Shown here piece after piece: positions 4,545-27,467 of a DNA stretch of 29,491 nt (its first letter is position 1; every line of letters starts with the position of its first letter). The notes beneath the pieces were generated by a model. That model searched no databases. It saw only the letters and a list, made by a program, of their open reading frames with translations, and was not told the DNA's origin. Both the position numbers and the translations under genes were made by a program. Source of the stretch: a virus; the IMG/VR virus record IMGVR_UViG_3300025759_011127, positions 1 through 29,491 of that record. One strand, given 5' to 3'.

Positions 4545-7500
4545 AGTCTAAGTATGTTTTCTAATTCATTTTTTTCTTGTAACAGGTCTTGTCTAAATAT
4601 TATCGATACATAAGCAGAAGTGACTGCTCTTGTGATTCTCAGTATAATATTCTCAACACTGGAGTGGTTAAATCCTGATCTATCGTCAAAATCATTTGAA
4701 ATATAGTTTTCAAAAAACTGACTATATGCATTTTGTAGCAATGGTACATCCTCTTCGCTGAGAGAAAACCAGCTAAGTCTAGATAAAAGAACCTGCTCAA
4801 GTGGAGCAACAGACCCATCAAGAACTGCTGTGACAAAATCTGTCAATATTTCATAATCATATGTCTCTGGACGTAATCTATTGATCTGAGAAACGATATT
4901 ATTTTTTTGTCTGAAGCCTTCTGGTGTTGTTTCATCAATACCAGGTAAACGATCAAGCTGTGCAGCAATAACCTCTAAATTATTACTGATCCTCTGTTGA
5001 TAAATTGATTGAATATATTGCAAGTGTTGTTCAAAAGTTTCTGCGTCTATACCTGTCTGGATGGATAATACTCTCAACCTAGTACTGACCTCTGAAGTAG
5101 AGTAAAAAGTTCTATCGATAAAAATCCCCTGAGACCTGGAGACGGTAGTGTATGGGAATCCAATATGCCTAGAGGAGTATTTTGTTATCTCCTGTTCGGC
5201 TATTGATGATAGTATTGCGTCGTCTGCATTGGCGATTTCGACTAAGCTTCGCATATGCCCAGACTTGAAGTTTCTCACAATATTTATCAGGCTATCATAG
5301 GTTATCAAGTATTGACCGATCATAAATCCGATTGGGAAATAATAAGCACCATAATAGAAACCCTCTTCAGTTGGTTCACCATCCTGATCGAGGAGTACGT
5401 TTGTTACAAAGTTTTGTACTCTTTCTATTTGTTGTTGTCCCGTAATTCCATAAATATCATAAGTCTGATCGTTTGTCACAGTCTGAAATCCTTCTAAGAT
5501 CCTCTCATAGAAAGTCTTTATTAGACCCTGATAACGATTTCTTGTTGTAGACCTAGAGTACGGGGAGGTATTCAGAGAACTGTACACACTATCAGAAACA
5601 CTATCTAACATTGAAGAGTAAACTTTTTCTACCAAGCTTTTGATATATTCCTTTGGTGTTCTTGTGTTTAGTTCTTCAAGTCTGTTATCAGGGTTATCAA
5701 CATATACTCTCTTTAGGACGTCAGAGTATTCAAACATAATGTTTGACAAACCTCTAGAGTCTAAGTCGTCATATACCTTTCTAAACAAGTAATCAACAAC
5801 TAGTTTTTTTGTTCCGAAACTATTCCAGTGAGGATATGCAGAAGCCATCGAAACTGTGTTCATAAAGAACCTTTGCAATCGAGCCTGGATCGACAGGACT
5901 ATAGCATTGGCAATAGCAACCTCTTTGTTTGTGACACAGTTTTCATCATTAGGCTGATATAGTGGTCGATTTGTTCCTCTAAGATACTGTTTCATCCTTG
6001 ATTTACCCTGATCATTTGCGAATGAAAAATCGATTTGCTGGTCAATATATTGTGTAGGGTTGGAAACAGATAGCGACTCTGATTCTACATTAGGAACGTT
6101 GACACCGCCACCACCGACAATCGGGAAGCGATATAAAAAACCAAACATAGCATTGTCAATTATCTGAGATATGAGTGCGTCATTCCTAGATGGCATTATA
6201 ATCTGTCGTCGAGGTCCTTCTGTTATTTGACCGCCCAAGAGTGATGGTCCAATACTTGTTGCCATCTTGTAATAATCAACAGACTGCTGATTTGGTTCGA
6301 CATCTCCTGGTGATGGGGTATATTGGGCTATTACTTTTCTCTCTTTTGTTCCGTCGGGATTCTTAACGATCCTGGTTATCTGAACACCATCATTATTTAG
6401 GTTTTCAATTGACATCGATGTTTTTGCGTTGCTGGTCTGATCATCATCGATCCACTGATCAGGTTGAAAAGATTTCTGAGATGCTTTCAAATATGCATTC
6501 AAAGTATCGTACAGCGTATCCCACCTTGTTGTTTGTGCGCCTTCTTCATTAGGGTTTGGAACTGGAACATCTGCAAGCGATGACCTAAGTGTCTGAGGTG
6601 CTGTTCTCAAAGCGTAGGATGATTCAAAATCTTTACGTCGTGCGCTAACGTTATCCAGAGGTCCCAACCACCACCAAGAACTGTTATCGTCAATAGTAGC
6701 AGGAGCAGGATATGGCAATAAGACTGGTGATCTTTCTGGTCGAGTCAAATACCTGTTAGATGATGGCGCTGTATATAAAAACCCTTCTTCATCTGTAGCA
6801 CGGTTGATTTGTGCTGCCATTATTTTTGTGGATATAATATTCCTAATTGTGTAATAAAGATCTTTTCCAAACATTGTGAGGTATAAGTTATAAACTTCTG
6901 AAGAGTCATTGTCAATCTCTTCTCCCCACAATTCTGACCACCACTCAGTCAATGAGTTCCATAAAGCATTTGAAATGGTAGCAATGAACTCCAGCAACTC
7001 TTCGTACTGCTTCATTATTGGGAGATCATTCAGCAAATCTTGCAATCCTTGTAGGATATTATCTAAATCCTTCAGCCAATCACAAAGAGCGTTTATCTTG
7101 TTTATTTTGTCTTCCGCAATACTTGCATATTGTGCTTCAAGTTGATCAGGACTAATCCTGAAACCTAATCTTTCTAATCCAAGGTCGGGTTCCAAACTGG
7201 AACAGTAAGCATCAAGAGGAGAAATATTAAGCTGGGCTATGTCTTCAATATTTTCATCTCTCATGGCATCGCCGAGAGCAATAAAAAAGTCTTTGATCTT
7301 ATTTTTTGTAAACTCAAAAGACCCATAAACATTAGGATCGATTGTTCTTGTAATGATTTCTTCATTACCATTTGGATTAAGATCGCTGTTTATTGGGAAA
7401 GTTATGACACCATCTGTTACAGTCTCCAAAATAAGCTCATAAAGAACATTGTCAGCAGATCCAAAGATAAGTTGATCTAGTTCTCTTGGTGTACACATAT

Positions 7501-15952: not shown

Positions 15953-17199
15953 AATTGCACCATTTTCCAAGCTTGATATTCTTTACGTTCTTCCCACGAT
16001 CCGTACTTTTGGTGAATCTCTTCAAGCAGATTTACCCAAGTGGATTGGTAGTCCTCAAAGTTGTAGTTCTTGAGAACGTGTTCACGACCTTTTCTGCCTA
16101 GCTCTGCAAGCTCTTCTTTTGGCATTGCGTAGATCTTGTTAAGAGCATCGATGAAATCTTCCTTTGAGATTCGATCTTCATAGATGTAGGGAACTTGCTG
16201 CGAACCGATAAGGGCTCTTGAAGAAGGTTCAATACCAATACCGAACCAGTTCTCTCCATCTGTCACCTGCTCCTGCAAGCCGCCAGTCATCGTTACAATG
16301 ATTGGAGTCTCCGTTGATAGTGACTCAAGAGTTGCGAGTCCAAAACCTTCTGCATCTGAAATGTTGATTGTGCAATCAGCTAAGTTGTAAAGGTTCGCCA
16401 ACTCTTCAGCGGGAAGCTTATTTTTTGAGAAAACGATCTCACCATTTGTCATTCCGAAAGTCTCTGCGAGATACTCAAGGGGCTGACCGTGTTTATCGCT
16501 CGTATCAGTGTGCATCAAGAGGCAGACTTTCGTGCTGTCAATGTGATCTTGTTTGATAAACTCTGAGAACCAATGAATCAAGCTTCCTGATTGCTTCCTT
16601 CTGGCGTTCCTATTGTTCCAAAAGAAGATGAACTTATCTTTGAGCATTGGATTATTGTTTAATAGCTTTTGTTTATCTGAGCCACTGACCTTGCCAAAGA
16701 TATTCATTGGCACGGCGTGTGGAACATAAACTTCGTGAACATCAGGCGAAACATTCTGAACAATGTCGCTTGTTACTTTTGAGATTGTAGCAATGACATC
16801 ATTCGAATCATACAGTTTCTTATTATACTGAGGATATGGATAGTTATCCCAGACGTGATAGTAGATCATAGGAATGTTTGGTCGGATATCGTCCTCAAAC
16901 ATCCATAACCATTCATAATATCTTGGATCCGTCATAAACCAGAGCATATCTGGCTTATATTGCGAGATAACTGCAAGAATCTTCTGTTTATCACCGTAGC
17001 CATCTACTGGCATTATTCGCCAGTCATCAGTGACCTTCATCGTGTTATAGTTTGGATGTTTAATCGCTCCACCGATAGAGAACACCTCAAACTTGCCACT
17101 GTCTACTATGGCTTCAATCATATATTTTGTTTGTAATCCCACCCCAGAGGACAGGAGCGGGTGGTCGCTTATTGTTAGTACTTTGATTTTATTAGACAT
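15949..17199 (-). CDS. GT-B glycosyltransferase (GT4-like)
   Basis: A 416-residue GT4-family transferase. N-terminal half: IKVLTISDHPLLSSGVGLQT with the glycine loop. C-terminal half: FIFFWNNRNARRKQSGSLI (donor side, arginine/lysine patch) and DAEGFGLATLESLSTETPII (E-x7-E motif), then GGLQEQVTDG. All key features appear intact. Start: the frame extends to a TTG at 17217, but ATG 17199 has GGGGAG a few bases ahead that overlaps the TAG of the nuclease gene, so 17199 is chosen. It is the first of three successive transferase genes. Confidence 0.9.
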   Translation of the reverse strand: MSNKIKVLTISDHPLLSSGVGLQTKYMIEAIVDSGKFEVFSIGGAIKHPNYNTMKVTDDWRIMPVDGYGDKQKILAVISQYKPDMLWFMTDPRYYEWLWMFEDDIRPNIPMIYYHVWDNYPYPQYNKKLYDSNDVIATISKVTSDIVQNVSPDVHEVYVPHAVPMNIFGKVSGSDKQKLLNNNPMLKDKFIFFWNNRNARRKQSGSLIHWFSEFIKQDHIDSTKVCLLMHTDTSDKHGQPLEYLAETFGMTNGEIVFSKNKLPAEELANLYNLADCTINISDAEGFGLATLESLSTETPIIVTMTGGLQEQVTDGENWFGIGIEPSSRALIGSQQVPYIYEDRISKEDFIDALNKIYAMPKEELAELGRKGREHVLKNYNFEDYQSTWVNLLEEIHQKYGSWEERKEYQAWKMVQL

Positions 17200-17207
17200 T
17201 TTCTCCC

Positions 17208-18047
17208 CTATTTGCAATACTCCGTCCTATAAAACTCACAGGTGCCGAAGCGGTCTTTGCAGTCTACGCAAGCATTTCGGTTCTTGACGTAGTTTTCTTT
17301 GTTGATATTATGCAATGCTTTGGTCAGAGCGTTAAGGGCATCTGATGTTCTTTTCTTTGCTGCCGTCACTCTAACGAACTCTGCTTTCTTGCCGGCTTTT
17401 GCAGTCCTCTTCAACAAAACGAAGTGACAGTCAATGTCTTTTGGCTCAACTTCATACTTCTGAGCATAGAAGTGTTTATAGAAAACTAGCTGATAGGCTA
17501 AGATTTTATCACTCTTCTTTTGTGGTTTCCATCCCCACGAGCAAGTTTTCCAATCAATCAGATGAACTTTCTTGTCTTTGTGAGAATACACAACAAGATC
17601 GATGAATCCTTTGAACTTCTTTTCTGCTTCCGTGAATTCTGTGATGGGCTCGTACAGTTGTTCTTCTGCTGCGAGGACTTCCCAATCCTTGCCTAACTTT
17701 CCGTACTTATCTGCAAGACAGCGGTAAAGGTCAGGAATGATTTCAATCCCATTTACAAGCCACTCTTTGAGCTTGAAGTTTGTTTTTGCATCGTTTTGGG
17801 CATCATCGGGCAGGGCGTTGAGTTCAGCAATAAACTGCTCCTTAACTAACGCCTCAATCTTACCAGGCTCTCTGTACTTTTCGGGAGAAGTCAAAGTATA
17901 TTCACAAACAGTGTGAATTGCTTTTCCGAAAGCAGTGAAAATATTGCCCTCGAACTGAGTAACTTTATCAATGTAAGTTAGTTTGTGGTAGTAAGGGCAG
18001 ATATGCCAGTTCTTCCACTCCGAATAGGAAATGTGTTTTCCAGCCAA
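17208..18047 (-). CDS. PD-(D/E)XK exonuclease with Fe-S cysteines (Cas4/RecB-like)
   Basis: A 279-residue nuclease of the RecB/Cas4 type. Visible motifs: H45 in GKAIH, D150 in KGFIDLVV, D165 and K167 in LIDWKT, and Q186/Y190 in AYQLVFY. C17 plus C260, C263, C270 and C278 give the one-plus-three cysteine pattern of Cas4/AddB-type [4Fe-4S] nucleases. Such enzymes resect single-stranded ends. It begins with TTG at 18047, 5 nt after AAGG, and no Met occurs nearby, so the rare start is forced. Location between a metallopeptidase and glycosyltransferases within the PhoH operon suggests a role in phage DNA replication or recombination. No CRISPR array or cas genes are present. Confidence 0.88.
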   Translation of the reverse strand: MAGKHISYSEWKNWHICPYYHKLTYIDKVTQFEGNIFTAFGKAIHTVCEYTLTSPEKYREPGKIEALVKEQFIAELNALPDDAQNDAKTNFKLKEWLVNGIEIIPDLYRCLADKYGKLGKDWEVLAAEEQLYEPITEFTEAEKKFKGFIDLVVYSHKDKKVHLIDWKTCSWGWKPQKKSDKILAYQLVFYKHFYAQKYEVEPKDIDCHFVLLKRTAKAGKKAEFVRVTAAKKRTSDALNALTKALHNINKENYVKNRNACVDCKDRFGTCEFYRTEYCK

Positions 18048-18064: not shown

Positions 18065-18721
18065 CTACAAGTTGTGAAGTTCGTCGATCTTGTTATATAA
18101 TACAGGACACAGCTTAAAAAGCAAGTCTTTTTTTCCTAAATAATATGCTTCAAAGCCAGTAGCAAAATATTCCCTCAAAGATACTGAGCCGTATGGTCTG
18201 ACAAAATCATTAGCAGTTGCCATCCTGAGCATATTTGGTCCAACTCGATTATAAAGGAAGTTGTCCATTTCTCTGTTGTACTGAACATCAGAAAAGTTAT
18301 ACTCATCAGTCCAGTAACCTTCTGCTTTGAGTTCACTCTCTAAGCGCTTTCTTTTTGATAGAAACTCTTTTTTAATATCTCCGTCGGAATAGATCAAGTC
18401 GCTATTGGTTGTTTCTATATGGTGAGCCATTTCGTGAACCAAGTCATCAAGCAAATCTTCTAGACCGTCTTGTTGGTCCGACAAATAAAGCCAGTCATCT
18501 TTATAAAGAGCCGAAATATTTCGATCATCAAACTCTTTCCTGTGAGCAATCTCAACTCCTTTTAGGTCCCTAAAAAAATGGGAAGGAAAAGACTTTTCAA
18601 GAGTCTTGAAGATTGGAGAGTAGTCAGTCGAGTTATTCTCAGTATCCTGATAAACCGCTATGTCTCCAAACTTGAAGTGTCGGGTTGTATTTTTGATCTT
18701 TTCTTCGATGTATTCTCTCAC
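18065..18721 (-). CDS. Zincin metallopeptidase-like protein (HExxH)
   Basis: A 218-residue protein with H96-E97-M-A-H100 in LVHEMAHHIE, the zinc-binding HExxH helix, and a downstream REYFATGFEAYYLG segment where E184 or E191 may be the third ligand, as in gluzincins. No signal peptide, so it should act in the cytoplasm or be packed in the virion. It starts with GTG, and the GTGA overlaps the TGA of the PhoH gene. Family members cut specific proteins; some in phages have been thought to act on host or prohead proteins, but the target here is unknown. Confidence 0.8.
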   Translation of the reverse strand: MREYIEEKIKNTTRHFKFGDIAVYQDTENNSTDYSPIFKTLEKSFPSHFFRDLKGVEIAHRKEFDDRNISALYKDDWLYLSDQQDGLEDLLDDLVHEMAHHIETTNSDLIYSDGDIKKEFLSKRKRLESELKAEGYWTDEYNFSDVQYNREMDNFLYNRVGPNMLRMATANDFVRPYGSVSLREYFATGFEAYYLGKKDLLFKLCPVLYNKIDELHNL

Positions 18722-20022
18722 AAAATCTCCGATGCTAGAGTTGCTAGTTCTGATCTTTCACCCTTGGTTAGAGTAACGTGACCAGCTATGCCATACTCCT
18801 TGAACTTTTCTACAGCGTGTGTGAGACCATTAGATACAGAATCAACATAAGAGTTGTCAATCTGTTGGATGTCGCCAGTAAGAACTAGTTTAGATCCGTG
18901 CCCCACTCTTGTTATTATAGTCTTTAATTCGTGCGCTGTTAAGTTCTGTGCTTCATCGACAATCATAAAAGCATTAGCTATTGATCTACCACGAATATAG
19001 GTCATAGCTTCAATCTCAATAGTCCCTTGTTCAACTTGCATATCCAAAGCTGTACGGTCTCCGAACAAGTGCTCAAGGTTATCACGTATTGGAGCAATCC
19101 AGGGAAGCATCTTCTCTTCTAAGGTTCCTGGCAAGAATCCAATATCTCTACCCATTGGCTGGACTGGTCGAGTAATAATCAGCTTATCATACCCACCGCT
19201 AGCTGATGTTGTGTTTATAACCTGCTCCAAAGCGCAAGCAGTAGCCAACAATGTTTTACCAGTTCCAGCAGGACCAGTCAAGGACATCATATGTATATCC
19301 CTATCAAACAAAAGATCCATAGCATATTGTTGTTCTTTATTTCTTGCTGATAATCCCCATATGTGTTTGTATTTGTTCACCTTCTTCAAGGGAGTATTGT
19401 AATCAGTGAACCTACAGATGGCTGATTTGTTTGTTGCTTCATTCTTCAAAAGTAGGAACTGGTTTGGGTAAAGTTTTACTTTCTGTTCTTCCAAACAAAA
19501 CGGCTCACCACTGTAAAAGCGGTCAATAACACTAAAGTCTACTTCTAGTTCTTGTGTTCCTTCGAAAAGGCTGTCTACTGATTTGATGACCTTTTGAGGC
19601 TGATAGTCATTGCAAGCAATGCCGTGAGCATCACATTTCACTCTCATATTAAGATCTCTTGAGACGACCTCTACGTCGTGACCCTTTTTGATTAGTCTGA
19701 GAGCTATTGCAATGATCTTATTGTCTGAGTCATCAGTTTTCATTCCTGGTGGCATAAACTCTTCGTCGAAATGGGCAGCAAACACTTTGCCCTTTCCTCG
19801 ACCAAGTGGAACACCACCCATCAAACTGCCTTTAGTTCTGAGTGCATCTAGAATGCGGTTCATCGCTCTAGCGTTCAAGCCGGCTGTATCTTGCCTGTGT
19901 TTATGCTTGTCAATCTCATCTAACACTATGGTTGGGATTGCGATATTGTTCTTGCCGAACGATAAAATAGAACTAACTTCTGTAAGGTATACATTAGTAT
20001 CTAAGATAATAGTTTTCTTCAT
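18718..20022 (-). CDS. phoH: PIN-PhoH family ATPase (PhoH2-like)
   Basis: A 434-residue two-domain protein. Residues 1-140: PIN nuclease-like domain with D8 (LDTN), E36 (LDEID), D98/D100 (DSDNK) and D123 (SRDLNM), an intact acidic set. Residues about 225-434: PhoH ATPase with Walker A GPAGTGKT (250-257) and Walker B MIVDEAQN (353-360). PIN-PhoH (PhoH2/YlaK-type) proteins are RNA-directed helicase/nucleases in bacteria. PhoH-family genes are frequent in marine phages. It follows the tmRNA terminator by about 57 nt and heads the leftward operon. No clear promoter is seen in that gap. Confidence 0.93.
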   Translation of the reverse strand: MKKTIILDTNVYLTEVSSILSFGKNNIAIPTIVLDEIDKHKHRQDTAGLNARAMNRILDALRTKGSLMGGVPLGRGKGKVFAAHFDEEFMPPGMKTDDSDNKIIAIALRLIKKGHDVEVVSRDLNMRVKCDAHGIACNDYQPQKVIKSVDSLFEGTQELEVDFSVIDRFYSGEPFCLEEQKVKLYPNQFLLLKNEATNKSAICRFTDYNTPLKKVNKYKHIWGLSARNKEQQYAMDLLFDRDIHMMSLTGPAGTGKTLLATACALEQVINTTSASGGYDKLIITRPVQPMGRDIGFLPGTLEEKMLPWIAPIRDNLEHLFGDRTALDMQVEQGTIEIEAMTYIRGRSIANAFMIVDEAQNLTAHELKTIITRVGHGSKLVLTGDIQQIDNSYVDSVSNGLTHAVEKFKEYGIAGHVTLTKGERSELATLASEIL

Positions 20023-20079: not shown

Positions 20080-20101
20080 AAAAAAGCCGCCCGAAGGCGG
20101 C
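20080..20101 (-). terminator. Intrinsic terminator of the tmRNA gene
   Basis: On the minus strand, GCCGCC-TTCG-GGCGGC is followed by six T. The stem is 6 bp, all G-C, closed by the very stable UUCG-type tetraloop. It begins the base after the tmRNA CCA end. The plus strand lacks a U-tract, so it works leftward only. Confidence 0.92.
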
Positions 20102-20425
20102 TGGTGGAGGTAGGGAGAATCGAACTCCCGTCTTGCCTAGTTTCATAAAAGGGTCGTTCACAAGGTTAGGTCTGTTTTTATCGTCAGACAGCCCACTTGA
20201 CTAGATCATTTTGTTTACGGCGAAAATAATCAAAAGCTCTTAGAAAATCAAATACGGCTTTCTGTTTTTTGGCTGCCGTCGCCTCAAGTCAAGCCAGGTT
20301 ATTAAGCTGCTTGTGCTAGTTGAAAATCGTCGTTAGCGATTATTAGATAAGCGTTTTTAGTGAGCCACGCTTCCCTCACCCTTGCACCGTTTTTACTTCC
20401 CCATCAATCGATACCGTTTACCCCC
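20102..20425 (-). ncRNA. ssrA: Transfer-messenger RNA (tmRNA, ssrA), one-piece
   Basis: The 324-nt minus-strand gene begins GGGGGTAAACGG and ends CTCCCTACCTCCACCA with CCA encoded. The first seven bases pair with TACCTCC, with a G3-U wobble, the alanyl-tRNA synthetase identity pair. A T-arm (GGGAG-TTCGATT-CTCCC) is present. The mRNA-like part has TAATC just before the GCT resume codon at 20337-20335, then codes for ANDDFQLAQAA and ends TAA TAA (20304-20299). tmRNA with SmpB rescues stalled ribosomes, and the tag marks the product for proteases. The tag starts AND and ends AA like bacterial tags; the third-last residue is Gln rather than Leu. SmpB is not in the window. Confidence 0.96.
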
Positions 20426-20625
20426 ATTGGTTATACTATATAACAACACGTAACACTTGTCAATTTATTCATAACTATTATCATAAAAGCTGTTAATAGC
20501 TGTTAAGTGCTAGAAAAGCTAAGAAAAAGTAATAAAAGTAAGAAAAAGGTTTTTTATTAGCTGTTAAAGCTGTTAAGCCATTATACAGGGAGAGCAAGAG
20601 GCGTAAAGGGTAAAAATGGATTTTT
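20426..20625. repeat. Repeat-rich, A-tract intergenic region upstream of the tmRNA gene
   Basis: A 200-nt gap with no gene. It holds four exact copies of AGCTGTTAA (plus strand) in two pairs: 20488-20496 with 20498-20506, and 20559-20567 with 20568-20576. Between them lie two copies of TAAGAAAAAG (20520-20529, 20539-20548) within an A-rich stretch. The pair starts are 71 nt apart, about seven helical turns, so same-face binding is possible. A weak AT hairpin (GTAAAAA/TTTTTAC) overlaps the stop of the upstream gene. Whether these are operator sites, iteron-like origin repeats, or neither is not decided. Confidence 0.7.
20428..20463 (-). promoter_or_regulatory. Strong sigma70 promoter of the tmRNA gene
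   Basis: TTGACA (20463-20458, perfect), 17-nt spacer, TATAGT (20440-20435, 5/6). The predicted start is about 20428-20427, 2-3 nt ahead of the mature 5' end at 20425, consistent with 5' trimming by RNase P. This promoter uses the host vegetative sigma and would be active without the phage gp55-like factor. Confidence 0.82.
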
Positions 20626-21411
20626 TTACAAGTCTAGACCGAGATCTGGAGTTTCTTCTTCGTTATCAACTGCTTGTACTGAATCTTTTTCTTCTTCGTA
20701 CTCTGGAGTTGTTACATCTGGAAGTGTTGTAGCCAAATCTGCTTCGAACTTATCGAAGTACAAGAGCAAGTTGGTGACCAAATAATCATAGAACATATCT
20801 CTATCTTGGTCGTCTGCTAGCATATCATAAGCATCTACAACTTGTTTCTCTACTCTTTTGAATGTTTCTGCCGCAAAGTTACGACCTGTTTCATTCTGAT
20901 CTTCTATTGATACGAAATCGTCTTTGTCTTCTTCTTTCTCAATATCAATAAACTCATCTGCTGATTCAGGAGCATCAACATTTAGCTCATCAACATCCAT
21001 ATCAATAGTGACTTTCTCTGTCAACACGTCAGCATCGATTTCAAACACAATATTTTCACCCACCTCTTCAGCTTGAGCAGTTACCTCGATGGGTCTTAGA
21101 GAGTTCTTGACAGCGTGTACAAGATGGTTTCTAAAGGAATCTCTTTGTTCCTTTGAAGTTGTGAGCATCATATAGTCATCTTGAATAGTTGGAATGATGT
21201 TCTTCAGCAAATCAGCTAGAACGTTGATACCAGTGTAGGTGCTTGGCTCTTCAGTTCCTGTCTCAGCTTCAGAGATAAGGATTTGACGGATGGAAGCTCT
21301 GAGCTTGGCTTCGTTCTTAGCTATCTCAGTAATTCTAGTTTGTAGGCGCTCACGAACATACTCTCTGATGAGTTGTTCAGCGATAATGGTTTTACGGTCA
21401 AGAATAGTCAT
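20626..21411 (-). CDS. Acidic phage protein of unknown function
   Basis: About 261 residues. N-terminal helix (ILDRKTIIAEQLIREYVRERL), then a middle part with QRDSFRNHLVHAVKNSL, and a strongly acidic second half (DIEKEEDKDDF, then a Glu/Asp-rich C-terminus). Start: the ATG at 21411 follows the previous stop by 10 nt and is used; a GTG at 21447 in the same frame would overlap the upstream gene. No motif gives a function. Acidic assembly-core, scaffold or DNA-mimic roles are possible guesses. It is the last gene before the tmRNA region. Confidence 0.75.
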   Translation of the reverse strand: MTILDRKTIIAEQLIREYVRERLQTRITEIAKNEAKLRASIRQILISEAETGTEEPSTYTGINVLADLLKNIIPTIQDDYMMLTTSKEQRDSFRNHLVHAVKNSLRPIEVTAQAEEVGENIVFEIDADVLTEKVTIDMDVDELNVDAPESADEFIDIEKEEDKDDFVSIEDQNETGRNFAAETFKRVEKQVVDAYDMLADDQDRDMFYDYLVTNLLLYFDKFEADLATTLPDVTTPEYEEEKDSVQAVDNEEETPDLGLDL

Positions 21412-21421
21412 AGTCTTATAA

Positions 21422-24400
21422 TTATCTCCGTCTTTGACGTTTTCCACGATTTACTTTAGGTTTGTTGCTTTTTCTTTTCTTTCCCTTGGGATAGACAGGC
21501 TTTGCACCCAGTGGAAGCGAGTATCCGCCAACAGCACCACCAGCCATCGTGCTCATCTCTTCAATAGCATCATCAATTAAGTTGTCCAAACTCTCTTCCT
21601 TTTTTGTCAAAGTATTCCAGAGAGCATCAGCATCTGCACTTGGCGGAACATAAGATAAGAAAGTTTCTCTGTCACCATCGTTAATAGCTTTTCTCATATC
21701 ACGAGCACTGTAAACAATACCGCCTTCTGACTGAACTGGGTCTTCAACGATGTCATCAACTGTTACACCTGGGTTGTGCTTGTCAGCATATTGTTGTGCT
21801 CTGTTGAAGCGAGTGTCGCCAACATCCTTACTGCTCTTCACTAGAAGAACTGTGTCGCCTTCTTTAGCAGATTCAGGATCAGCTACAAACTCATAGACGG
21901 CTTGTACGGGGCTTCTGTAGTCTGCAATCTTTGCAGTGATGTTTGGCTCACCATTCTGAAGATAGGTTTCCCAGATTTTGAGAGACTGTTGATTGCTGAC
22001 TTCTGGGTAATCGACGGGAGAAATAAGAATAATAACTTCATCAACATCAGGACGCTTAGCAATCTGATTTACATAATCAAAGTGACCTCTGTGAGGTGGT
22101 TTGAACTTCCCTGGGAAAAGAGCAACTCTTCTACCTTCTGCTTCGGTGATGATCTTGTTATGATCTAGGGACTCTTGTTGTGTGGAAGCATCAGCTACCT
22201 GTTGTGTCATTTCTCTGCCGATAACCTCAGAGTCTTTGATGGCTTCTGTACCAGCGTTGATAGCCTGGCTTCGATCACCGTAAGTGAAATAGTTATCAAT
22301 GTTTTCAGACAGTTTTTTGGTAGCATCAAAGATATCTTCAACGGACTTGCTTAGCTGGTCCATATGTTGTGTAGCTATTTTTACGATTGTTTCAGGAGAT
22401 ACAGGTAGGTATCCAAGCTTACCCCACTGAGAAATGTCTTTGGTTTTTGGTAAACGACTATAAGTTACAGACCATTGCTTTCCGCCTGTCTTTCCTTCGT
22501 TGATCAAATACTCATTCATCAACTCTCGATTTTCTTCGATGGTAATTGTTCTTAGGTTCTCTTTTCTGACTTGTTGGTCATCATCTTGAGCAGAAACAAT
22601 ACCTCTTTCTTTGTCGTTTAGTTCTTTTTCTTTGCGAGCCTTATCAAGGTCTGTTTCTCTTTGTTTTGCGTTATATCCATTTGTGCGCTGATACACTCGG
22701 TACTGTTCTTCCCAACTGTTTGCCTTTTTTAGTTCTTCTAAAGTGCTGGTATATGGCTCATCACCAATCCCAAGAATAGCATTAGAAGTTTTATCTTGTT
22801 TTCCTGCTGACAGCAATCCGAATATATTATCCCTTGTGAACATAAACTTTTCTATGGATATCTCATCGCCAAGCTTCCTAGCGACGATATACAACATACC
22901 ATTTTCATATTCATTTAGGGCATCGATAAGGTTTGTGTAACTGCCGTGGATGTCACCTTTTTCCCTGAGAAGTTTCAAACTGACAGGTACTTCATACTCT
23001 TCGCCAAGATCTGTAAAAGCAATCAAATCCTGAATCGGAAGATTTCCTTTTGCTGTTATTGGGTCTGATTCTTGTTTACCGCTAAGCATTGCGGCAAGGA
23101 ACCCCTCAAATACAAATCCTGCGGCAGAAGAAGAGAAGCTGTGAATAACAGCACTCAAGGACTCTAGCATAATAAGAGTGCTAATAATACGCCGTGGAGA
23201 TGTCATCTTAGATTCAGAAGATGCTCTCCTCATAAGATCTTTTAGTCTCTCTTCAATACTTGCTCCACCTGAAATAGTTGAGAATATCTTTTGAACCTGC
23301 TTCCTCTCCATAGAATCAGGCTTACCCCAGTTTTCTGTTGGAATAAACTTAGGGAGCGAGAGAACAAACTTTTTAGCTCGATCAGCCTTAATGTTAGCTT
23401 CATCCTCAGTTAATATATTCTTACGAGGCTGAACGCTCTCATTTGTCATAGGCTTCGTACCCATTCCATACTTAAACATCCCAAGGATCTGATTCAATGG
23501 AGCAAAGTTACCTGAAAACTTATATGTGTGACCGTTGTAGTCAAAGACAACAGCCTCAACAGGAGTTGTTATCTGAGAGAAGTCTTTTATTTTGTTTAGG
23601 TGCCTTTGCATTACTTCCATAGCAGCAGGATCTTCTGCACCTCTGGCTGTGATTTCTCTCACAGCATTTGCCAACTCTTCCTTGAGTCGCATAACTTCAG
23701 CGCTTGTATCAGCGATGAATACACTGTCAAGACCTTTTAGGAGTTCTACAGCAAAGTCGTGAACAATATTCTCAAGAGGTTCGATTGCTTGTAGGAGTAA
23801 TGACTTCTTTGAAGCAATAACATTGTTCAGGTCTGCTAGATCTTCTTTGGATAATCCTTTTTTGATTGCCCTCAGACCGATGTTACCTGGGAGCTTCATC
23901 AAATAGCGGACGATTTCTCTTCTGATGTTCTCTGGAAGTTCTGTGTCCATTCCATTTAGAAGCCTAGTAAACATATAGTCTTCCATCGTGGATTCGTCAT
24001 TTAGGTTGTTGTCCGCCATCTGCCTGTTTAGGGCAGCTATTGAGCGTGAAAGTACCTCTTCATCTTCAAGTCTCTGAAGATTGATTATAGCTTTTCTAGC
24101 GAGCTTGTATTTGCTTTCAGATTTCGAAAGCTGTCTTTGCATTCTTTCAAGGGCGTCATCAATTACTTCTAGGGCACCATCTGGTATTGGATTCTTTTCG
24201 CCCGTCTCTTTGTCAAAAGCAAAATGACCAACACCGTGGATTTTCAAAGTCTTATCATCATATTTGATAACATTTACTGATCCTGGATCATCTGGATCAC
24301 CAGTAGTGCCTGGGTCCATTATCTCGGCATTGTACCAAATATTAGCGTCTGGTCCGAAGGCTCTGATCTTTTCTCTATCAGAAAGCGATTCAACTGCTTT

Positions 24401-24691
24401 TTCAAAAGCATCAAAACCATTGACAAAGGCTTTCTCTAGACCACCTCTACCAGCAAACTTCTTTGCCAATCCAACAGCATCCAAACCACCAGACTTTAGA
24501 TTGCCTTTATTACGAGCGCCTTTTGCCTTACCTTCGGGAACAGAATAAGAAAGAAATAAGTTCTGACCATCTACCTTTTCTTCGGTAGAGAGTTCGGCAT
24601 TAGCAGCCGCACGGATAATCTCCTTCATTTCACCAAAAGTTAATTCTCTATTATCATAGAGATGATCCATGTGACCAGCAACGCCGCCCAT
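21422..24691 (-). CDS. Multi-domain enzyme: ligase-like nucleotidyltransferase, possible nuclease core, HxGH cytidylyltransferase-like domain
   Basis: A 1089-residue single frame. N-terminal region (1-410): K39-V-D-G in EEKVDGQNLF is motif I of the covalent nucleotidyltransferases (ligases, capping enzymes); WYNAEIMDPG (119-128) fits motif III; EAVVFDYNGHTYKFSGNFAP (379-398) fits motifs IV-V. Middle (510-640): FVFEGFLAAML, IQDLIAF and VPVSLKLL give an E...D...SxK pattern like restriction-type PD-(D/E)XK cores; this is tentative. C-terminal region (855-1010): GKFKPPHRGH (861-870, HxGH class) and YSARDMRKAI (994-1003) are the nucleotidyltransferase/cytidylyltransferase signatures. A basic tail ends the protein. 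The known pairing of such domains in phages is a loose memory, not a search. Substrate is unknown; nucleic-acid repair or end processing is inferred. Confidence 0.85.
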   Translation of the reverse strand: MGGVAGHMDHLYDNRELTFGEMKEIIRAAANAELSTEEKVDGQNLFLSYSVPEGKAKGARNKGNLKSGGLDAVGLAKKFAGRGGLEKAFVNGFDAFEKAVESLSDREKIRAFGPDANIWYNAEIMDPGTTGDPDDPGSVNVIKYDDKTLKIHGVGHFAFDKETGEKNPIPDGALEVIDDALERMQRQLSKSESKYKLARKAIINLQRLEDEEVLSRSIAALNRQMADNNLNDESTMEDYMFTRLLNGMDTELPENIRREIVRYLMKLPGNIGLRAIKKGLSKEDLADLNNVIASKKSLLLQAIEPLENIVHDFAVELLKGLDSVFIADTSAEVMRLKEELANAVREITARGAEDPAAMEVMQRHLNKIKDFSQITTPVEAVVFDYNGHTYKFSGNFAPLNQILGMFKYGMGTKPMTNESVQPRKNILTEDEANIKADRAKKFVLSLPKFIPTENWGKPDSMERKQVQKIFSTISGGASIEERLKDLMRRASSESKMTSPRRIISTLIMLESLSAVIHSFSSSAAGFVFEGFLAAMLSGKQESDPITAKGNLPIQDLIAFTDLGEEYEVPVSLKLLREKGDIHGSYTNLIDALNEYENGMLYIVARKLGDEISIEKFMFTRDNIFGLLSAGKQDKTSNAILGIGDEPYTSTLEELKKANSWEEQYRVYQRTNGYNAKQRETDLDKARKEKELNDKERGIVSAQDDDQQVRKENLRTITIEENRELMNEYLINEGKTGGKQWSVTYSRLPKTKDISQWGKLGYLPVSPETIVKIATQHMDQLSKSVEDIFDATKKLSENIDNYFTYGDRSQAINAGTEAIKDSEVIGREMTQQVADASTQQESLDHNKIITEAEGRRVALFPGKFKPPHRGHFDYVNQIAKRPDVDEVIILISPVDYPEVSNQQSLKIWETYLQNGEPNITAKIADYRSPVQAVYEFVADPESAKEGDTVLLVKSSKDVGDTRFNRAQQYADKHNPGVTVDDIVEDPVQSEGGIVYSARDMRKAINDGDRETFLSYVPPSADADALWNTLTKKEESLDNLIDDAIEEMSTMAGGAVGGYSLPLGAKPVYPKGKKRKSNKPKVNRGKRQRRR

Positions 24692-26570: not shown

Positions 26571-27467
26571 TTACTTTCCGAACATTTTGTCTAAAGAGTG
26601 CTTCATCCTATTCATCCACTTTTCGTCGATCTGAGTCCCAGAAGCAGGTTTATTGCTTTTTTCCCAGAGATTCATTTCAGCTAAAGCAATGCTTTTCTTA
26701 AGGAATACACGAATCGCAACGAGGGGAGAGGAAAGACCAACATTCTCTATAGCAGGGTAGCCAGCGAATATCAAACCGACAATCTTATGATCTTTGTTTA
26801 TGATTGCTGATCCGCTTGAGCCTGGTTTTGTTGGCAGTGTGTATACTGAGTACCCAAGTGTATGATATCCTGAGAAATATCCCTTGAAAATAAGAACTGA
26901 ACCAGGCCAGAAAAGACCGTGAGGTGCAGCAAGGTTTGTCACCATCTCACCACGCTCAGGTTCTTTGTCAGCAAGTCTCAGGGTTGTCAACCTCTTATAA
27001 ACATCGGAAACTTTTAGAAGACAGAGATCAAATCTTTTATTTGTCATAACGACTTCTGCGTTATAATGCTGACCTTCTAGATCTACAACCTTGAAGGTTG
27101 ATCCCTTATTCTTAATCATAATACCTTCTATGATCTGAACAGGTGGGATCTTATTTTCACAAGAGTGACCAGCAGTCATAACATAGGACACGTTATCAGA
27201 TACTTCACTATGAAAGACAAAAGAACCAGATGAAACATATCTCATATTGGCTTTTTGACACTTTCTTTCGCCTGTTTTAGGATCATTTCCACAACCCTCA
27301 AGCAAAACTGAGTGTTTTATTTGAGCAAATGCTTCTCTTGGTAGTGGCTTTTCAGACCACATATTAGAGACATTGACATTTACTGTTTTACAACCACTTG
27401 CGCAACTAGCAAGGCTGAGAAGCCCTACGATCAGAAACTTGACGTAAAGTGATGTTTTTTTCTTCAT
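26571..27467 (-). CDS. Exported trypsin-like serine protease, probable lipoprotein
   Basis: A 298-residue protein. Residues 1-26: Lys-rich start, hydrophobic helix and lipobox LASC (C22), with a second Cys at 26, so an exported, probably lipid-anchored protein. The protease fold follows: H101 in VMTAGHSC, D147 in RFDLCLLKV, and S218 in PGSSGSA (GxSG) give the chymotrypsin triad in the right order. GLIFAGYP fits the last strand. Substrate and cell location (outer or inner membrane) are unknown. It is transcribed divergently from the plus-strand cassette. Such secreted proteases are uncommon among T4-like phage core genes, so an accessory role at the host envelope is inferred. Confidence 0.87.
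   Translation of the reverse strand: MKKKTSLYVKFLIVGLLSLASCASGCKTVNVNVSNMWSEKPLPREAFAQIKHSVLLEGCGNDPKTGERKCQKANMRYVSSGSFVFHSEVSDNVSYVMTAGHSCENKIPPVQIIEGIMIKNKGSTFKVVDLEGQHYNAEVVMTNKRFDLCLLKVSDVYKRLTTLRLADKEPERGEMVTNLAAPHGLFWPGSVLIFKGYFSGYHTLGYSVYTLPTKPGSSGSAIINKDHKIVGLIFAGYPAIENVGLSSPLVAIRVFLKKSIALAEMNLWEKSNKPASGTQIDEKWMNRMKHSLDKMFGK

Follow-up and report, generated by a model that had tools for sequence, protein, structure and literature searches.

The locus considered here raises the question whether a phage lineage maintains a working ribosome-rescue RNA, and what its non-canonical tag may mean. It lies in a linear IMG/VR virus record of 29,491 bp, which is called the window below. Comparison of sequences suggests that it very probably encodes a working phage tmRNA that rescues ribosomes via host factors and bears an exchangeable tag cassette.

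The tmRNA gene and its genomic setting

A single one-piece tmRNA was predicted in the window by ARAGORN, with the tag ANDDFQLAQAA and two stop codons at gene positions 89-127. The match to the Rfam family RF00023 covers the complete model (positions 1-374 of 374) and is well above the curated gathering cut-off (85.6 bits versus 47, E = 3.8e-32). The features of the locus are listed with their evidence.

20102..20425 (-): tmRNA gene (ssrA), one-piece, with encoded CCA and an acceptor pair of the G3-U70 type (ARAGORN; RF00023; acceptor pairs invariant)
20435..20463 (-): sigma-70-type promoter TTGACA-17-TATAGT (11 of 12 consensus positions; seen in relatives)
20305..20337 (-): reading frame of the tag ANDDFQLAQAA, with GCT as resume codon and 11 codons in all (ARAGORN; length kept in 38 of 39 relatives)
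20299..20304 (-): TAATAA, tandem stops closing the tag frame (ARAGORN; comparison of relatives)
20307..20312 (-): helix 5, 5' strand, shared with tag codons 9-11 (compensatory pairs in the 32-row alignment; chimera energies)
20291..20297 (-): helix 5, 3' strand, covarying with tag codon 9 (32-row alignment; chimera energies)
20085..20102 (-): intrinsic terminator hairpin, T tail to about 20076 (same hairpin in most relatives)
18718..20022 (-): PIN-PhoH (PhoH2-type) gene, conserved downstream neighbour (PF13638 and PF02562; preceded at 58-82 nt by the tmRNA in 40 of 40 relatives)
20626..21447 (-): gene for a conserved protein of 273 aa, upstream of the tmRNA (gene order shared by nearly all relatives, the distant clade included)

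The tRNA-like domain has all expected elements: the CCA end is present in the sequence, the G3-U acceptor pair (GU at positions 4/347) is retained in all 32 aligned relatives, and the T-arm contains stem pairs with compensatory changes. In the same alignment 24 of the 64 consensus pairs have changed on both sides with pairing kept. The tag frame opens with an alanine resume codon, has a hydrophobic Ala-Ala end and is closed by an in-frame stop. The candidate promoter ends 9 nt before G1 of the tmRNA. It is conserved across relatives though the spacer sequence diverges, and the exact TTGACA box with a 17-nt spacer occurs in 32 of 39 distinct tmRNAs. The terminator hairpin, AGCCGCCTTCGGGCGGCT-TTTTTATTAC, begins at the 3' end of the tmRNA. 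Thus both the complete one-piece tmRNA and the promoter and terminator of its own, proposed in the first-pass annotation, are borne out.

The same annotation placed the gene in a T4-like phage, and indeed the virus record contains T4-like baseplate-wedge, endolysin-like and PhoH genes, and the tmRNA occupies the same slot in relatives of up to 190,528 bp. Hence the gene resides in phage and not in host DNA. The description of the tmRNA as lying between phage operons is loosely worded, since all genes flanking it share one strand. The two conserved proteins encoded upstream (20626-21447 and 21422-24691; 273 and 1089 aa) have no Pfam match; in PHROGs the larger one gives a weak match of cytidyltransferase-like type. 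Elsewhere in this phage contig, at 26571-27467, a trypsin-like serine protease is encoded whose N terminus appears to be of the lipoprotein type.

PhoH2-type proteins are RNA helicase-RNases. Such an activity encoded near a tmRNA would fit a role in rescue, but the synteny is general and this is not proof. A special pairing of PhoH with tmRNA was considered as evidence and dropped, since the whole neighbourhood is syntenic.

Conservation in related viruses

A search for related viruses with the PhoH protein yielded 49 loci. Among these, 40 relatives have a PhoH identity of 65% or more, and in every one the tmRNA is situated just upstream of PhoH, its 3' end 58-82 nt before that gene; two of the 40 are cut at contig ends, so that only the 3' part of the tmRNA is visible. 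A scan for a conserved pseudoknot-1 motif detected it in 48 virus records, the longest of 190,528 bp, and produced 39 distinct complete tmRNAs. About a dozen family members were missed by ARAGORN and recovered by Rfam. Some close relatives had seemed to have no tmRNA; these were ARAGORN misses, found again with Rfam or on inspection of the sequence.

In a distant clade (PhoH identity about 54%) a tmRNA with the tag ANDNVEFDYALAA or ANDNVEIDYAIAA is located between the same two genes, farther from PhoH. Other members of this clade contain no tmRNA over the DNA examined. The ancestor of the lineage thus probably had the tmRNA already, and members beyond the close clade have lost it or lack it. 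The relatives are metagenome assemblies, and as nearly all of them are incomplete, the absences of genes are not fully proven. A BLASTn search of the phage collection with the window tmRNA gave only a 34-nt T-arm-like match. The search for hosts by PhoH in genome contigs retrieved only other lineages (45%, 42% and 40% identity), sharing no neighbour genes with the phage except for one weak glycosyltransferase match.

Tag alleles, helix 5 and exchange of the tag

The 39 distinct tmRNAs fall into four classes by the C-terminus of the tag: QAA (15), MAA (13), LAA (10) and bare Ala-Ala (1); thus all tags end in Ala-Ala. The frame has 11 codons in 38 of 39 cases while the length of the remaining RNA ranges between 289 and 321 nt, which indicates that the frame is maintained. 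The canonical ClpX-type ending Y/F-A-L-A-A is absent from the window, which has Leu at position -5 and Gln at -3. None of the 39 family tags has Tyr or Phe at -5; tags of the distant phage clade do. Among bacterial tags (the best 30 by score, from one phylum) 29 end in (Y/F)AxAA, most of them in YALAA. On the other hand, tags of a second, small bacterial phylum end in ELALAA, so that phages are not alone in lacking the aromatic residue. Gln at -3 was found in none of the 35 bacterial tags compared. The antepenultimate Leu of relatives is encoded by different codons, CTC, TTA and CTA. The first-pass annotation had singled out the tag as divergent, with Gln in place of Leu. The replacement is real and the tag non-canonical, but it is one allele of a mosaic set and not a lone oddity. 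Moreover, according to the statement in PMC7652416 that cites Flynn et al. 2001, changing the antepenultimate Leu raises the KM of ClpXP only modestly in E. coli, so Gln alone is a weak argument for altered proteolysis. The further idea of that annotation, that a tag unlike the host's could alter the choice of protease, is a conjecture.

The third-from-last tag codon is paired, within helix 5, with the sequence 3' of the stop. Compensatory changes are seen here in the 32 aligned sequences: column 122/143 is A-U in 13 sequences and U-A in 11, and column 123/142 is A-U in 19, G-C in 10 and C-G in 3. When 5' strands were refolded with 3' strands from other tag classes, the mean energy was -4.0 kcal/mol, compared to -6.2 kcal/mol with their own strands; 20 of 22 distinct haplotypes preferred their own strand. 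This is single-strand folding of a short stretch and hence a rough model, consistent in direction.

Exchange of tags among close relatives has occurred repeatedly, with little change elsewhere in the RNA. On the PhoH tree (36 rows) the tag class needs 14 changes, the minimum being 3 and the mean of shuffled assignments 17.7. The tree of tmRNA bodies with the tag removed (39 sequences), itself weakly supported, again requires 14 changes. Well supported sister pairs with unlike tags are L036/L037, L033/L034 and L020/L029, and L014 similarly stands beside the clade of the window.

A distant member, L195 (PhoH identity 51%), has a strongly diverged tmRNA body at 6518-6836 with a tag cassette nearly identical to the main-family ANDDFNMEMAA. 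Compared with L017, three segments of the body are 57.5%, 42.1% and 54.3% identical, whereas the segment comprising the pre-resume region, the tag, helix 5 and early pseudoknot 2 is 84.8% identical. The reverse is seen between the window and L017, with 92.5% and 93.5% identity at the two ends and 78.3% in the cassette segment. Both identity patterns fit a local transfer of the tag cassette; an alternative in L195 is strong selection on this segment. The tag-coding segment and the covarying strand of helix 5 appear to behave as an exchangeable cassette.

The bare Ala-Ala allele was observed in L032. At the resume position of this tmRNA there is GCA GCT TAA, opening the stretch GCAGCTTAAAAAC that recurs at the usual end of the tag. 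Apparently, the two-residue tag arose by duplication of GCAGCTTAAAAAC, which brought the end of the tag itself to the resume codon. Both strands of helix 5 are changed with pairing retained, the promoter agrees with 11 of 12 consensus positions, and the tmRNA scores 67.5 bits in Rfam. A search for a second such allele returned only the 97,631-bp record of L032 itself. As GFP ending in LAA alone is not degraded by ClpXP (PMC7652416), the Ala-Ala tag would probably spare tagged proteins.

Possible function and relation to known systems

No SmpB gene was found in 32 virus records (26 and 6, up to 190 kb), the same search being positive in 10 control bacterial genomes; therefore the phage would use the SmpB of its host. 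The following scheme may be proposed. Host RNA polymerase probably transcribes the tmRNA early, from the sigma-70 promoter, and host alanyl-tRNA synthetase would charge it. Host SmpB would then deliver it to ribosomes that have stalled on mRNA which is broken or lacks a stop codon, the tag would be added to the unfinished protein, and the ribosomes would be freed for phage translation. The most likely role is the freeing of ribosomes stalled on cleaved mRNA during infection. The QAA, LAA, MAA and bare AA tails of close relatives probably differ in their uptake by host Clp proteases.

Two explanations deny the gene this role. It could be a captured, non-functional host ssrA, such as a relic of a prophage attachment site. 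Prophages frequently integrate in ssrA, and an origin of this kind was raised for Melnitz (PMC9004378). However, the gene is of full length, its changes conserve the structure, it occupies one slot in 40 relatives, and in the clade with 54% PhoH identity it is again found in the interval bounded by these two neighbour genes; no integrase was noticed among the window genes scanned. Such a relic is extremely unlikely. Hardly more probable is that the RNA acts as a decoy, titrating SmpB and blocking the host tmRNA. Phage DS6A does have a nearly TLD-only tmRNA, and a similar molecule inhibits tmRNA (PMC4131195). The window tmRNA, on the contrary, has an mRNA-like domain with a tag; this domain, the reading frame and the stop codons are all retained, and a decoy would need none of them.

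If the RNA does rescue ribosomes, the significance of the tag can be viewed in several ways. One possibility, on balance rather doubtful, is that rescue alone matters and the tag, an almost neutral passenger, changes by drift and recombination, bound mainly by helix 5 and the frame. Indeed, L032 encodes only Ala-Ala yet retains the promoter, the terminator and a re-paired helix 5, and tag classes are spread almost freely over the phage tree. A neutral tag is at odds with the constancy of the 11 codons (38 of 39) and of the Ala-Ala end (39 of 39), with the recurrence of a few C-terminal types (QAA, LAA, MAA), and with one MAA tag common to divergent tmRNA bodies. It is somewhat easier to envisage, though still by no means probable, that the tag matches or avoids the Clp adaptors or proteases of a given host and that cassettes are exchanged to follow host changes. 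Near sisters differ at the antepenultimate residue (L036/L037, L033/L034, L020/L029), Leu at this site is encoded by CTC, TTA or CTA, and long relatives encode ClpP-family proteins. Against an adaptive tag are the modest KM effect of replacing this Leu, as cited for E. coli in PMC7652416, and the lack of any ClpX/ClpA-type C-domain in nine phage records. A further tentative suggestion is that the mRNA-like cassette is a module under shifting selection: tags would recombine with compensation in helix 5, setting the destruction or sparing of rescued proteins for each host; at the extreme, a bare Ala-Ala would separate rescue from degradation.

Phage tmRNAs as such are known: one survey recorded them in 402 of 18,146 phage genomes (PMC9004378), and a 2025 database contains 79 unique ones (PMC11915505), to be compared with the 39 distinct tmRNAs described here. 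Their function in phages is unproven in those sources too. Mycobacteriophages Bxz1, Cali, Catera and Wildcat and Bacillus phage G likewise have a complete one-piece tmRNA with a tag frame (PMC4131195); the tmRNA described here differs in that it keeps a single conserved position throughout a lineage of uncultured myophages and has a polymorphic and mosaic tag. The pelagimyophage Melnitz is similar in being an aquatic myophage with a tmRNA of no proven function (PMC9004378). However, its tmRNA is a permuted two-piece molecule with a glutamine riboswitch, found in 17 of 47 contigs of its cluster, whereas that of the window is a one-piece molecule behind a sigma-70 promoter, present in 40 of 40 close relatives. 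Two-residue Ala-Ala tags occur in 25 tmRNAs of Fermentibacterota (PMC11915505), as in L032, which is a phage. The ANNELALAA and ANEELALAA tags of the small phylum mentioned above (that of G027) resemble the phage allele ANNNAELALAA. These bacteria were rejected as a host lead: their tmRNA bodies are unlike that of the phage and hence provide no host evidence.

No report of exchangeable tag cassettes was found in the literature searched, a search that most subscription journals lay beyond; a lineage-wide, exchangeable tag cassette appears to be undescribed so far. The bacterial tag ends sampled (the best 30, one phylum) are conservative, in contrast to the exchanged tags of this phage lineage. 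By keeping the rescue RNA everywhere while its tag is exchanged, such a lineage provides a natural set of variants with which to examine whether ribosome rescue, proteolysis directed by the tag, or the two together are what phages require.

ClpP-family proteins are encoded in long relatives (7 of 26 records), for instance L070 (13695-14297, minus strand) and L081 (18834-19577, plus strand). The former apparently keeps the catalytic Ser, His and Asp, whereas in the latter Asn seems to replace the Asp. GroEL-like chaperonin genes were observed in L070 (17702-19288, minus strand; Pfam Cpn60_TCP1) and in L082 (3411-5072, plus strand). Finally, the 175-kb relative L081 encodes at 16454-17500 (plus strand) a protein that, by eye only, looks like an IMP dehydrogenase.
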